Positions 4,704-48,764 of a stretch of 64,000 nucleotides of DNA are shown piece by piece. A program made the position numbers and the translations under genes. Positions within the stretch are counted from its first letter, which is position 1. Every line of letters starts with the position of its first letter. The notes beneath the pieces were generated by a model. That model ran no database searches. It had not been told where the DNA came from and saw nothing but the letters and a program-made list of their open reading frames with translations. Source of the DNA: Paludibacteraceae bacterium (GTDB lineage: Bacteria; Bacteroidota; Bacteroidia; Bacteroidales; Paludibacteraceae); the NCBI GenBank assembly GCA_017503075.1, contig JAFVTU010000001.1, positions 1-64,000 of the forward strand, in the 5' to 3' direction.

Positions 4704-5084
4704 CTACCCTACTTTCATTGCTTTAAGCACTTGTGCAGCGATATAGCACTGCAGTTTAATATACTGTTTCTCGCCTTTTTTGGGCTTGTCCAATTGCTCC
4801 TCAAACAGTGTTTGCCAATATACCAATCGCTCAGGATCATTCATTTCTGCGATAGCTTGCTTCTGCGCCACTTTAAATAGCTCGCGATGAGAAGTGATGG
4901 CGGGCGACCAAGCTCCTTTGTGGAAATGATAGACATACATTTCTTTGGGACCGAGGCGGGGTGTGCCGTTTTTGGTTTTACCAAAGCATTTGCGACGAGT
5001 GACCATGACAGAGTCATTGCCACGATTGAGGCATTGTTTGCCACGCACCTCACTGACGGGTGCCATGTAAGTAACTTGTGACAT
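4704..5084 (-). CDS. Uncharacterised small basic protein, copy A of a duplicated cassette
   Basis: A 126-residue protein I do not recognise. It is real: a paralogue at 44194-44577 shares most of its length, and protein similarity is stronger than in the leaders. Shared features in order are MSQVTYMAPVSEVRGK at the N-terminus, a basic centre with TRRK and GKTKNGTPRLGPKEMYVYH (about 28-53), a probable helical segment SHRELFKVAQ (about 65-74), MNDPERL, and a basic C-terminus GEKQYIKLQCYIAAQVLK. It has no signal peptide or membrane segment, so it is likely cytoplasmic. The net basic charge would suit nucleic-acid binding, but that is inference. The layout recalls other small uncharacterised Bacteroidales proteins with an N-terminal 'RG' motif. 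It is monocistronic, with a 185-nt leader. Confidence 0.8.
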   Translation of the reverse strand: MSQVTYMAPVSEVRGKQCLNRGNDSVMVTRRKCFGKTKNGTPRLGPKEMYVYHFHKGAWSPAITSHRELFKVAQKQAIAEMNDPERLVYWQTLFEEQLDKPKKGEKQYIKLQCYIAAQVLKAMKVG

Positions 5085-5278
5085 AGATAGTTAAAGTTTT
5101 AAAAAAAAAGTAAAAGTGTTAGATATGATTTTAATAGGTTCTATGAGAGTAAGGAATTGTAAGGTTATTGTATGGTTATTGTATGGTTATTGTATGGTGC
5201 GTGCAGGGAATCTGTGGGCTATTGGCGACATGAGTTATAGACACATTATAGTTGGTTTAGCAATTTTCTGCAAAGATA
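5085..5278 (-). promoter_or_regulatory. Promoter and conserved 5' leader of small protein copy A
   Basis: The -7 box TATCTTTGC lies at 5270-5278 and is followed by a leader of about 185 nt before the ATG at 5084. Blocks shared with the leader of copy B (44578-44794) include CCAACTATAAT then CTATAAC just after the promoter, three tandem 11-bp repeats, and TTTAACTATCT directly before ATG. Long conserved leaders are unusual for this genome, so the leader may carry regulation. No riboswitch family is recognised. Confidence 0.6.
5163..5198. repeat. Three 11-bp tandem repeats in leader A
   Basis: Three perfect copies of GGTTATTGTAT (plus strand; ACCATACAATA in the transcript) followed by a further GGT. 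The same array with T/C variation lies at the equivalent place in leader B (44679-44714). Confidence 0.9.
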
Positions 5279-5396
5279 CAACAAAATTTTCAAATTTCCA
5301 AATTTTTCGAGCACTTTTTTCTAAAAAAGTAATCTACTTACAACTCAGTTCGCATAAAGAAATAAAAGGTAACCAAAACTAAGTATAAAAAGAAAA

Positions 5397-22848: not shown

Positions 22849-22849
22849 T

Positions 22850-22901
22850 GTGTTTAGAGTTTAGTGAACGCGGCAGAGCCGCTACTGTTTAGTAATTAGT
22901 G
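22850..22901. repeat. Dispersed intergenic hairpin repeat, copy 4
   Basis: GTTTAGAGTTTAGTGAACGC, core GCGGCAGAGCCGC, then TACTGTTTAGTAATTAGTG. It fills the whole def-ruvX gap and contains the ruvX stop codon at 22896. Confidence 0.75.
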
Positions 22902-27418: not shown

Positions 27419-27476
27419 AATTAGTAATTACATAGTTATTAGTTAGTGATTAGTTAGTTATTAGTTAGTGATTGCT
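27419..27476. repeat. AT-rich tandem repeat between gyrA and DUF2851
   Basis: Imperfect copies of TTAGTTATTAGTTAGTGA over about 58 bp. It is similar in spirit to the GTTTAGTGTTTAGTG ends of the dispersed hairpin family, but without a hairpin core. Confidence 0.75.
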
Positions 27477-43366: not shown

Positions 43367-43375
43367 AATTACATT

Positions 43376-43468
43376 GTTTAGCGTTGTGTAGTGTTGTTTA
43401 GTGTTGTTTAGCGTTGTGTAACAATTCTACACCACTCTACACAATTCTACACCATTCTACACAATTAA
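43376..43468. repeat. Repeat tract between ntpE and DUF2764
   Basis: The left half has GTTGTTTAGYGTTGTGTAGT units and the right half has TTCTACACCA/TTCTACACAA units. The halves are partly complementary, so the transcript could fold into a long imperfect stem. The tract ends inside the ntpE stop region. Confidence 0.75.
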
Positions 43469-44193: not shown

Positions 44194-44577
44194 TTATTGC
44201 TGCGTTTTCAACTTTCTCAACAATTGCGCAGCAATATAGCATTGTATTTTGACATACTGTTTCTCGCCTCGTTTTGGTTTATCCAGTTGCTCCTCAAACA
44301 TCGCTTGCCAGTGTGCCAAACGCTCAGGATCGTTCATTTCGACAGTGGCTTGCTGCTGTGCCACTTTGAATAGTTCGCGATGCGAAGTGACAGCAGGAGC
44401 CCAAGCTCCTTGATACTTGTGATAGACATACATCTCTTTTGGACCAAGACGGGGTGTGCCGTTTTTGGTCTTTCCGTAAGATTTGCGACGTGTGACGATG
44501 AGTGAGTCGTTGCCACGATTGAGGGTAAGTTTTCCACGCACCTCACTGACGGGTGCCATGTAAGTGACTTGAGACAT
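44194..44577 (-). CDS. Uncharacterised small basic protein, copy B of a duplicated cassette
   Basis: A 127-residue paralogue of the protein at 4704-5084, with the same order of segments: MSQVTYMAPVSEVRGK, NRGNDSLIVTRRK, GKTKNGTPRLGPKEMYVYH, SHRELFKVAQ, MNDPERLAHWQ, EEQLDKPKRGEKQYVK, CYIAAQLL. Differences are concentrated in the loop after VYH (KYQGAWAPAV against HFHKGAWSPAI) and at the C-terminal tip. I do not recognise the family. Conservation of a highly basic, glycine- and lysine-containing centre, and of a long leader, suggests that both copies are expressed and maintained. It lies just upstream of the ATPase operon promoter but has its own. Confidence 0.8.
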   Translation of the reverse strand: MSQVTYMAPVSEVRGKLTLNRGNDSLIVTRRKSYGKTKNGTPRLGPKEMYVYHKYQGAWAPAVTSHRELFKVAQQQATVEMNDPERLAHWQAMFEEQLDKPKRGEKQYVKIQCYIAAQLLRKLKTQQ

Positions 44578-44794
44578 AGATAGTTAAATTTAAAAAAAGT
44601 TATAGAGGTTGATAAATTTTGATAATTTTAAGATTTAGATATTTTACATGGGAGTTATACGGAGGTACTGAATAGTATGGTTATTGTGTGGTTATTGTAT
44701 GGTTATTGTGTGGTGCGGAAAAAGGATTTTAGGTCTATCAGTGACGTAGGTTATAGGCAGATTATAGTTGGGTTAAGAATTATGTGCAAAGATA
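44578..44794 (-). promoter_or_regulatory. Promoter and conserved leader of small protein copy B
   Basis: -7 box TATCTTTGC at 44786-44794; leader of about 208 nt. It shares with leader A the blocks CCAACTATAAT and CTATAAC, the triple 11-bp repeat and TTTAACTATCT before ATG, plus AAATTTGGAAATT upstream of the -7 box. The middle of the leader has diverged, so the shared blocks stand out. Confidence 0.6.
44679..44714. repeat. Three 11-bp tandem repeats in leader B
   Basis: GGTTATTGTGT, GGTTATTGTAT, GGTTATTGTGT and a trailing GGT. This is the same array as at 5163-5198, with T/C changes at one position of the transcript. Confidence 0.9.
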
Positions 44795-46154: not shown

Positions 46155-48509
46155 ATGACTACCAATCGCAAAATAACCATCTTCCTTGCCTCTAGCGAAG
46201 AGCTTATCAACGACCGTAATAGTTTTAGCGATTTGATACGCTCGCTAGATAACATCTACGAAGATCGTGGCATACGTATTAAACTCCAAAAATGGGAGGA
46301 TTTCTTTGCCTATTGCACAGGCACTCGTACGCAAGATCAATACAACCAAGTGCTCAGTGCCAGCGATATGTGTATCTGCCTCTTCCACAAACGAGCAGGA
46401 CAATACACCGTCGAGGAGTTCCACCACGCCATAGCTGAATACCAACGCACCGGCGATCACCCCAAAACCTATGTCTATGCCCGTGCTCTGGTGGAAGGCG
46501 AGGTGGAAGAGGAAGAACTTAAGCAATTCAAAGACGAGTTGTTTAAGCAGATGGGACACTATTGGTGCAACTATGCCACCGAGGACTCCATGAAACTCCA
46601 CTTTGTCATGCAGTTCGAGCGATTGATCAACGCCAACCATGGACATAGAGAAGACAACCAAAACCTATCCATCGAACAGGGCAACGTCATGCTTCATGGA
46701 CGCAAAATAGCCGATTATAACAATATCCCTTTCGCTGCCAATAATACCGAAGTTCTCTCTCTCAAAGAGAAAATTGCCGCATTAGACAAAGACATCGTTG
46801 CTCTACGCAGTATTGGCAACGACGCACTCACGCCGATGATCAATGAAAAACTCTCCGAGCGCCACCAATACCAAGAGCATCTTGAGCAATTGGAGAAGCA
46901 ATTGCTAGATACTGCGCTTTCTATCAGCAAGATAATCAGTAGTGGTCATCCTATCAGCGAGCGCAAGCGTGCCGCCATCGAGATGTTTGAGCAGGGTAAC
47001 AACAAGGGTGTGCTGGATATGCTCAACGAAGAAGATATTGAACGCGACTACCAAAGTGCCAAGAGCAGACTATCTGCAGGAAAACAACTAGAAGAAACTG
47101 CACAAAAAGTAATCCAAGCTGCACGAGACGAGATCCGTTCGTTGGTAGATGAATATTTGCTAAAAGCCAAAACTTGGATGAGCACCTACAGCGAAGCTAA
47201 CCGCTTTGACGAGGCTTGCAAATGCTACGAACAAGCCATCGCACTAACAAGAGAAAGTTTGCCAGAAGAGAATTTAGCAGAGCGGCTGTTTGAATATGGC
47301 CTGTTTCTGCAAGATAATAATCAATATCATCAAATAGAGACATACTACCAAGAGGCATTAACTATTCGGGAGCGTTTGGCAAAGGCACACCCTGAGGCAT
47401 ATGAAGCGAAGGTAGCAATGACCTTGAATAATCTCGCGAATTTGTATCACAAAACGCAACGATTTGGCAGAGCAGAGGAGTATTTTCTACGTGCATCGGA
47501 GATTTATGAGCGTTTGGCAACTGCACACCCCGAAGCGTACGAATCGTATGTAGCAATGACCTTGAATAATCTCGCAGGTTTGTATGATGATAAGCGACGA
47601 TTCACCGAAGCAGAAGCGTATTATCTTCGTGCATTGGAAATTCGTGAGCGTTTAGCATCTGCACACCCAGAAGCATATGAATCGTATGTAGCAAACACTT
47701 TGAATAATCTCGCTGTTTTGTATTGCAATACGCAACGGTTTGATAATGCCGAAGAGTACTATCTGCGTGCATCGGAGATTTATGAGCGTTTGGCAACTGC
47801 ACACCCCGAAGCGTACGAATCGTATGTAGCAGGCACTTTGAATAATCTCGCTAATTTGTATAAAGATACGCGACGATTCACCGAAGTAGAAGCGTATTAT
47901 CTTCGTGCATTGGAAATCTATGAGCGTTTAGCATCAGCACACCCTGAAGCATATGAAGCTGATGTAGCACTGACCTTGAATAATCTTGCTATTTTGTATT
48001 CCGATACGCAACGTTTCAACGATGCAGAAGCGTATTATCTTCGTGCATTGGAAATTCGTGAGCGATTAGCATCTGCACACCCTGAAGCATATGAAGCTGA
48101 TGTAGCAGACACTTTGAATAATCTTGCTGTTTTGTATTCCAATACGCAACGTATCAACGATGCAGAAGCGTATTATCTTCGTGCATTGGAAATTCGTGAG
48201 CGATTAGCATCTGCACACCCAGAAGCATATGAATCGTATGTAGCAAACACTTTGAATAATCTTGCTAATTTGTATTCCGATACGCAACGTTTCAACGATG
48301 CAGAAGCGTATTATCTTCGTGCATCGGAGATTTATGAGCGTTTAGCATCTGCACACCCAGAAGCATATGAATCGTATGTAGCAAACACTTTGAATAATCT
48401 TGCTAATTTGTATAAAGATACGCGACGATTCACCGAAGCAGAAGCGTATTATCTGCGTGCTTTGGAAATTCGTGAGCGTTTAGCATCTGCACACCCAGAA
48501 GCATATTAA
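46155..48509 (+). CDS. DUF4062 protein with long tandem TPR array, ended by an in-array stop
   Basis: 784 residues as read. Residues 5-100 (RKITIFLASSEELINDRNSF, then DMCICLFHKRAGQYTVEEFHHAI) are a DUF4062 domain, a Rossmann-like fold related in layout to TIR/SEFIR effector domains and typically fused to NACHT/NB-ARC ATPases or TPRs in STAND-like proteins. Residues about 200-262 are a predicted coiled coil. From about 411 the protein is a run of 46-residue TPR units (HPEAYESYVANTLNNLA, then RFTEAEAYYLRALEIRERLA) encoded by 138-bp DNA repeats. No ATPase module lies between. Translation stops at TAA 48507, where sister units have GAA, and the same frame continues for another 129 codons. ATG 46155 follows the promoter; an upstream in-frame ATG would be inside it. 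Confidence 0.85.
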   Translation: MTTNRKITIFLASSEELINDRNSFSDLIRSLDNIYEDRGIRIKLQKWEDFFAYCTGTRTQDQYNQVLSASDMCICLFHKRAGQYTVEEFHHAIAEYQRTGDHPKTYVYARALVEGEVEEEELKQFKDELFKQMGHYWCNYATEDSMKLHFVMQFERLINANHGHREDNQNLSIEQGNVMLHGRKIADYNNIPFAANNTEVLSLKEKIAALDKDIVALRSIGNDALTPMINEKLSERHQYQEHLEQLEKQLLDTALSISKIISSGHPISERKRAAIEMFEQGNNKGVLDMLNEEDIERDYQSAKSRLSAGKQLEETAQKVIQAARDEIRSLVDEYLLKAKTWMSTYSEANRFDEACKCYEQAIALTRESLPEENLAERLFEYGLFLQDNNQYHQIETYYQEALTIRERLAKAHPEAYEAKVAMTLNNLANLYHKTQRFGRAEEYFLRASEIYERLATAHPEAYESYVAMTLNNLAGLYDDKRRFTEAEAYYLRALEIRERLASAHPEAYESYVANTLNNLAVLYCNTQRFDNAEEYYLRASEIYERLATAHPEAYESYVAGTLNNLANLYKDTRRFTEVEAYYLRALEIYERLASAHPEAYEADVALTLNNLAILYSDTQRFNDAEAYYLRALEIRERLASAHPEAYEADVADTLNNLAVLYSNTQRINDAEAYYLRALEIRERLASAHPEAYESYVANTLNNLANLYSDTQRFNDAEAYYLRASEIYERLASAHPEAYESYVANTLNNLANLYKDTRRFTEAEAYYLRALEIRERLASAHPEAY

Positions 48510-48764
48510 TCGTATGTAGCAAACACTTTGAATAATCTTGCTGTTTTGTATTCCAATACGCAACGTTTCACCGAAGCAGAAGCGTATTATCTCCGTGCAT
48601 TGGAAATTCGTGAGCATTTAGCATCTGCACACCCAGAAGCATATGAACCGGATATAGCAACGACCTTGAATAATCTCGCAGGGGTATATTACTATACACA
48701 TCGTTTTAACAAGGCCGAAACGTATTATCTTCGTGCATTGGAGATTTATGAACGTCTATTTTCC
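47385..48764 (+). repeat. Ten tandem 138-bp TPR-coding repeats
   Basis: The GCACACCC landmark recurs every 138 bp from 47385 (47523, 47661, 47799 and on to 48627). Neighbouring units are very similar at the DNA level, including synonymous positions, which points to recent duplication or gene conversion. Units alternate between REIRERLAS-type and SEIYERLAT-type variants. Confidence 0.9.

Follow-up and report, generated by a model that had tools for sequence, protein, structure and literature searches.

Small basic proteins of a Bacteroidales genus are encoded beside 11-bp repeat arrays that diverge with the protein and recur across the same genomes

Two loci lying some 39.5 kb apart in 64,000 nucleotides of Paludibacteraceae DNA (hereafter the window) raise the question of whether a small basic protein recognizes the short direct repeats that precede its own gene. 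The initial annotation, made from the letters alone, described these loci, copies A and B, as a duplicated cassette with common promoter, leader and coding region, and took the selective conservation of a few leader blocks as a sign of regulation, for example through binding of the encoded protein to its own leader or promoter DNA. Here we follow the protein and the repeat through related genomes and propose that the family comprises DNA-binding proteins whose cognate arrays lie both at their own promoters and at dispersed chromosomal sites.

The duplication is borne out. Copy A (positions 4704–5084, minus strand) encodes a small basic protein of 126 amino acids and copy B (44194–44577, minus strand) one of 127, both with a net charge of +11; the two proteins are 79–80% identical, and a pairwise coding comparison gives dN of 0.116 against dS of 0.90, indicating coding constraint on the pair. 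On the same strand, the motif TATCTTTG precedes A at 5271–5278 and B at 44787–44794; it matches TAnnTTTG, which we take to be the Bacteroidetes promoter motif, and the intervening leaders span 5085–5270 (about 186 nt from motif to start codon) and 44578–44786 (about 209 nt). The leader of A carries the three 11-bp repeats first noted there, exact copies of ACCATACAATA at 5166–5198, together with a fourth, degenerate unit, ACCTTACAATT, at 5155–5165 (array 5155–5198, minus strand); the array of B (44671–44714, minus strand) also has four units, the final one being ACCATACTATT. With one mismatch allowed, the 11-mer of copy A occurs eight times in the window, compared with a chance mean of 1.9, and none of 100 shuffles reaches eight. 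Rfam yields nothing at gathering score within the window. The other leader blocks fared differently: CCAACTATAAT and CTATAAC are indeed common to A and B, but by eye both are missing from the leaders of six close homologues (L049–L054; 78–85% identity), whereas the 11-bp array is present in all six. Both sites are also occupied by family genes in relatives. Copy A lies between a β-eliminating lyase gene and an acyl transferase gene, and L051 lies near the same lyase; L052 and L053 have downstream genes in common with copy B.

Nor is the cassette private to two loci. Copy A as query finds six matches in its own genome, three of them clear, and a 13-row profile finds 13 members there at E values up to 1e-6, and the remaining 197 of the 198 genomes searched order-wide yield none. 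In the taxonomic family, nine of 150 genomes have a match (E up to 1e-5), all in the genus of the window, and within that genus 53 of 61 genomes, which are drafts, incomplete, partly contaminated and read through simple ORF calls, contain members at E up to 1e-12. The six named relatives are five Paludibacteraceae metagenome-assembled genomes (MAGs) from ruminant guts and one Bacteroidales MAG. With E values up to 1e-3, a 44-row profile reaches five genomes among 295 searched order-wide (the own genome, a second from the same genus, and, from two other families, G266, G401 and G485), and a profile of short members reaches 7 of 395 class-wide genomes, the own genome counted. Members are about 100–170 amino acids long and mostly basic, with a median net charge of +10 and a minimum of −4.

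The family, which the initial annotation did not recognize, is unknown to the libraries as well: Pfam, NCBIfam, PHROGs, PADLOC and the PDB give no convincing family match, and the PDB sequence search returns nothing below E 0.29. Weak library matches occur, each to at most one member of an alignment; those named as nucleases (PADLOC HNH_I-A at E 2e-4, NCBIfam EcnA at 0.0018 and NCBIfam PtuB at 0.0091) we judge to be chance. An AlphaFold2 model built with eight sequences suggests, at low confidence (pLDDT 51.5, pTM 0.28), a fold of three strands followed by three helices. Searches of open-licence papers list no title or abstract that describes the family or such arrays.

The array is a general feature of the family. 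We scored self-similarity at lags of 8–25 in up to 400 bp upstream of 98 family ORFs, picked by protein similarity rather than by their arrays and including short-type neighbours down to E 1e-4, with the maximum of 100 shuffles as threshold. An upstream 11-bp array was detected in 74 of the 98, with 11 as the highest-scoring lag in 66. As a control, four of 52 gene upstreams in the window pass, namely those of A and B and of two divergent genes; the latter, the only ones among 50 non-family upstreams, share a single dispersed array at 27432–27475 (plus strand), four units like TTAGTKATTAG, the type of another paralogue, between the divergent gyrase A and DUF2851 genes. Counting against our model, the remaining 24 family ORFs have no 11-bp array within 400 bp; they include the three 103-residue members and L227, a 48% relative in G201, a genome that does contain dispersed arrays. 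The unit itself varies by paralogue (for example ACCATACAATA, ACGCACAATAG, TTAGTGATTAG, ACGATAGATAC, AGTAGGTGATT and TTCCCGTAGAG).

The arrays have further structure. Among the 78 arrays of type 1 (that of A and B) listed from seven genomes, four copies is the commonest number (45 arrays); in many type-1 arrays the last unit ends in ATT rather than ATA, often followed by CG, which marks the array end. Composite arrays, with two repeat types in successive 11-bp steps, occur at L192, L196, L197 and L203 (G191), L111 (G171) and L124 (G183). The short superfamily members L076 (C11), L079 (C30) and L077 (C20) adjoin one another in small clusters, mostly without 11-bp arrays. Between genes downstream of copy B, at 43374–43466 of the window, lie two adjoining arrays of 10-bp period, TTGTTTAGCG and ATTCTACACC; a 108-residue short paralogue in L079 has an upstream array with a 10-bp lag and similar CTACACAACC units, so that the period in a sister clade may be 10 bp. 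A separate 138-bp tandem repeat, in ten copies at 47364–48746 of the window, is probably within a repeat protein gene.

The repeat co-diverges with the protein of its paralogue. Over 72 genes with an array and a protein match at E below 1e-14, the set used for this and the promoter-position test, protein and repeat distances correlate with a Mantel rho of 0.55; the value is 0.51 over 47 genes at less than 70% identity and 0.54 over 29 genes at less than 50%, and in each test none of 999 permutations reaches the observed rho. Part of this correlation is shared descent, because gene and leader are linked. Linkage alone is probably insufficient, as one would not expect unconstrained leader DNA to stay so similar at less than 50% protein identity.

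Arrays of the same types also lie far from the family genes. All three own-genome types for which we searched are dispersed in that genome (G000). Type 1, matched as two tandem units with up to three mismatches, gives 34 matches there against none for the reversed-pattern control, corresponding to 14 arrays including those of A and B; type 2 gives 25 against none; and type 3, whose pattern also matches variant units within type-1 arrays (in G174, for example), gives nine against one, on only two contigs besides that of the gene. Across the 61 genomes of the genus, type 1 is found in nine, type 2 in nine (partly the same genomes) and type 3 in ten. Copy number varies widely: type 2 has 25 matches in G000, none in 52 of the 61 genomes and 117 in G183, where the reversed control (107) is invalid, the type-2 unit being almost unchanged when reversed; in seven further genomes (G158, G161, G163, G171, G174, G184 and G202) the control gives more matches than the pattern. 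Dispersed arrays occupy anything from a few to more than 20 intergenic sites in a genome; the arrays counted in G118, G183 and G191 are lower bounds (at least those listed), and some G174 arrays are split by masked bases.

Array and cognate protein tend to occur together. In the 61 genomes, type-1 arrays and a protein at 42% identity or more are both present in seven, the protein alone in one, the array alone in two and neither in 51 (Fisher p = 6e-7); the identity cut was chosen post hoc, and the corresponding counts are 7, 5, 2 and 47 when every protein match with an E value of 1e-12 or less is accepted. Counting against the model, type-1 arrays lack a close protein in G156 and G184, a 43% protein lacks ACCRY arrays in G142, and the G183 protein match is a 40-residue fragment at a contig end. 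Variants enriched in dispersed arrays also turn up in the leader of a family gene: in G183 TTAGTGATTAA is the dominant unit of both, in G191 both contain TTAACGATTAG, in G174 both contain ACCGGACAATA and a distinct flank, and in G171 both contain ACCGCACTATT. Such common variants and flanks would be the signature expected of recognition, or of copying, in trans. The match is imperfect. ACCGCACAATA, the type-1 unit most often dispersed in the own genome (13 occurrences), is absent from the leaders of A and B, which have only ACCATACAATA, ACCACACAATA and near variants, and the leader unit of L074 differs from the common dispersed type-2 form, which that of L075 matches; both points count against the model.

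The surroundings of the dispersed arrays do not point to a common function. Eighteen of 20 array-adjoining genes scanned have Pfam matches, among them RimM, a SpoU methylase, a Mur ligase, gyrase A, RsfS and exonuclease VII; because these genes are functionally unrelated, no regulon is evident, which counts against the model. Several type-1 sites are common to two to four species, for example one between two OmpH-like genes. At one shared array site (L042 and L125), two species are almost identical over the array and some 100 bp on its 3′ side but differ at the end of the upstream gene, suggesting local transfer or conversion. The intergenic region at positions 22849–22895 of the window is free of arrays, whereas its counterpart in G197, G171 and G183, flanked by the same genes, contains one of type 1; we considered a mobile-element insertion here and rejected it, the single empty site compared showing no clean cut-and-paste insertion.

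If the protein does recognize the repeats, the target could be DNA or RNA, and array position and orientation bear on the choice. In 51 of the 72 genes a TAnnTTTG motif precedes the array and no other follows it before the start codon (in 49 the distance is within 150 bp); the motif is downstream of the array in five, two of which (L052 and L074, counted here) have an upstream motif as well, and in 16 no motif was found. With the array thus usually between promoter motif and start codon, the protein might bind 11-nt repeats in its own mRNA leader and in other transcripts. The type-1 dispersed arrays lend this some support: they prefer the sense strand of the surrounding genes (21 sites ++ against 5 −−, p = 0.002, with orthologous sites merged by hand), and of the 31 that follow a gene on their own strand, 17 either overlap its stop codon or start no more than 60 nt from it. 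This strand analysis covers 45 type-1 sites, leaving out family-gene leaders and rows inside ORFs or with masked bases, and the genes around arrays are longest-ORF calls that can be wrong. Type 2 has no such bias (6 against 11, unmerged sites), a difference that counts against our model, and 16 of 39 type-2 arrays lie in divergent intergenic regions. Among pairs at 45% protein identity or more with a clear orientation call, 124 have arrays in the same orientation and 31 in the opposite one, in at least three clades. Copy A and L052, at 78% protein identity, have a repeat distance of 0.68 on the same strand and 0.09 on opposite strands, whereas A and B are at 0.09 on the same strand and 0.64 on opposite ones; the arrays of copy B and L052/L053 point in opposite directions at the same chromosomal site, and further inversions separate L246/L284 from L264/L267 and L286 from L282. 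In L080 and L081 the array lies upstream of the promoter motif. Orientation flips are tolerable to a reader of duplex DNA and not expected of a reader of transcripts; because orientation changes even among close homologues and the array can precede the promoter motif, these patterns favour duplex DNA as the probable target, and we regard control at the RNA level as quite improbable. Of the two targets first suggested, DNA is therefore favoured over the RNA leader.

We accordingly suggest, as a reading that we hold to be probable though far from certain, that the family consists of DNA-binding proteins, each controlling its own gene through the leader array and occupying the dispersed arrays in trans; both of these steps are deduced from sequence patterns. 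One turn of the DNA helix is about 11 bp. The small proteins would recognize tandem 11-bp repeats in double-stranded DNA, protomers probably lining up cooperatively along one face of the helix. Bound at the own-type leader array, usually just downstream of the promoter motif, the protein would block or tune its own transcription; same-type arrays elsewhere would be bound in trans and could serve as regulatory or chromosome-organizing sites. Paralogues would have diverged to different repeats with the 11-bp period kept, giving several largely separate protein–array pairs per genome. The regulation by its own basic protein that the initial annotation suggested thus gains support, in that arrays precede most family genes, diverge with the protein and recur in trans.

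Two other accounts have to be weighed against autoregulation with binding in trans. The dispersal could reflect a REPIN-like system, selfish or domesticated, in which the protein, alone or with host recombination, copies the array to new intergenic sites and autoregulation is secondary. The wide variation in copy number fits, as do the roughly 10–25 bp of common flank around the dispersed arrays of one genome, the unrelated genes beside them, and the one site that has an array in three genomes but not in the window. Yet that empty site gives no clean insertion, several sites are common across species, so that any array movement must be slow, and the repeats are direct, head to tail, rather than palindromic. 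The proteins offer little towards it either: among 44 members Pfam yields no transposase at E values up to 0.1, transposase or nuclease matches are weak and in at most one of the 44, and 19 of 90 proteins contain the H-hydrophobic-H pattern, the HUH motif. Viral contigs contain no match to the exact type-1 and type-2 patterns, on which ground we set aside a phage link. We regard spread of this kind as possible and clearly the less probable account.

The arrays might instead serve another host factor, or be passive minisatellites or rut-like sites, with the small protein merely travelling with one of them. Rut sites are C-rich, G-poor and spaced by 11 nt, and the sense strand of type 1 has just this character; types such as TTAGTGATTAG, however, are not C-rich, and we rejected rut sites as a general explanation. 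Passive arrays have some precedent, a minisatellite element being known in Porphyromonas gingivalis, another of the Bacteroidales (described in PMC4596501). A single host factor, by comparison, explains neither repeats that follow the paralogue nor variants common to leader and unlinked sites, and we think this account unlikely.

Outside the genus, the pattern of leader and dispersed arrays recurs in another Bacteroidales family. G401 has a 101-residue member preceded by five AAACGTARNAT-like units before the start codon and three further arrays of this unit beside unrelated genes (control 0), and G266 has 11-bp arrays at both of its members. Counting against the model, the member in G485 has no 11-bp array above null, nor do those in the class-level genomes G635, G678, G691, G785 and G852; in G864 the 11-bp lag is slightly above null (14.0 against 12.5) with a stronger 22-bp lag alongside.

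On their defining features, neither ParR/parC nor REPIN/RAYT accommodates the family, although ParR on the 11-bp repeats of plasmid R1 would be the nearest working analogue and REPIN/RAYT the nearest genomic one. In R1, parC consists of 11-bp direct repeats, at least two of which are required for ParR binding, and ParR proteins of different plasmid families do not bind noncognate parC, according to PMC9426499, which also cites a title stating that ParR autoregulates the par operon. The likeness lies in a small protein, here predicted to bind DNA, with direct 11-bp repeats at its own promoter (74 of 98 ORFs, with the motif close in 49 of 72). The present system differs in having several chromosomal paralogues per genome, dispersed arrays and no detectable sequence relation, and no actin-like ATPase is found among nine neighbour proteins scanned of A, B and relatives (lyases, an acyl transferase, methyltransferases, RhuM, DUF3990, an LRR protein and one without a match). 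ParR has a ribbon-helix-helix fold; our model of the family, with three strands and then three helices, is of too low a confidence to compare folds. RAYT genes are flanked by a repeat type dispersed in extragenic space, with several separate types per genome and co-evolution proposed (PMC3116915), and here too a gene-adjoining repeat is dispersed extragenically; REPINs are inverted pairs of palindromes rather than direct 11-bp arrays, and the family shows no sign of a Y1/HUH transposase.

Two repeat elements compare through their arrays only. BrickBuilt of P. gingivalis, a minisatellite MITE, likewise forms intergenic tandem repeats in a Bacteroidales genome, but it has a 23-bp unit rather than a period of 11 and terminal inverted repeats, and the passages describing it mention no cognate protein gene (PMC4596501); by eye, the flank consensus of our dispersed arrays has no terminal inverted repeats. 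TAACTGA heptamers of Beggiatoaceae and some Bacteroidetes are also short intergenic sets of direct repeats, mostly just before start codons and, in the main genome studied, mostly in one orientation, with S1, Csp and Csr suggested as binders (PMC4679880); that 7-bp unit contrasts with 11-bp units of other sequence here.

More speculatively, and at a confidence well short of that in the model itself, the system may be one of chromosomal addressing, in which each protein of a rapidly diversifying family reads a single repeat, has its master array at its own promoter, and brings together or marks tens of cognate arrays across the chromosome; this would resemble parallel chromosomal centromere or nucleoid-anchor systems working without cross-talk, and natural variation would reveal the code that links protein to repeat. 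If the proteins do bind their arrays, nature would provide here many matched pairs of protein and DNA repeat, 72 of which we have compared, built on no recognized domain. A recognition code could be worked out from such pairs, one class of dispersed repeats in gut Bacteroidales would have its explanation, and a testable question follows: whether these arrays serve gene control, chromosome organization or selfish spread.
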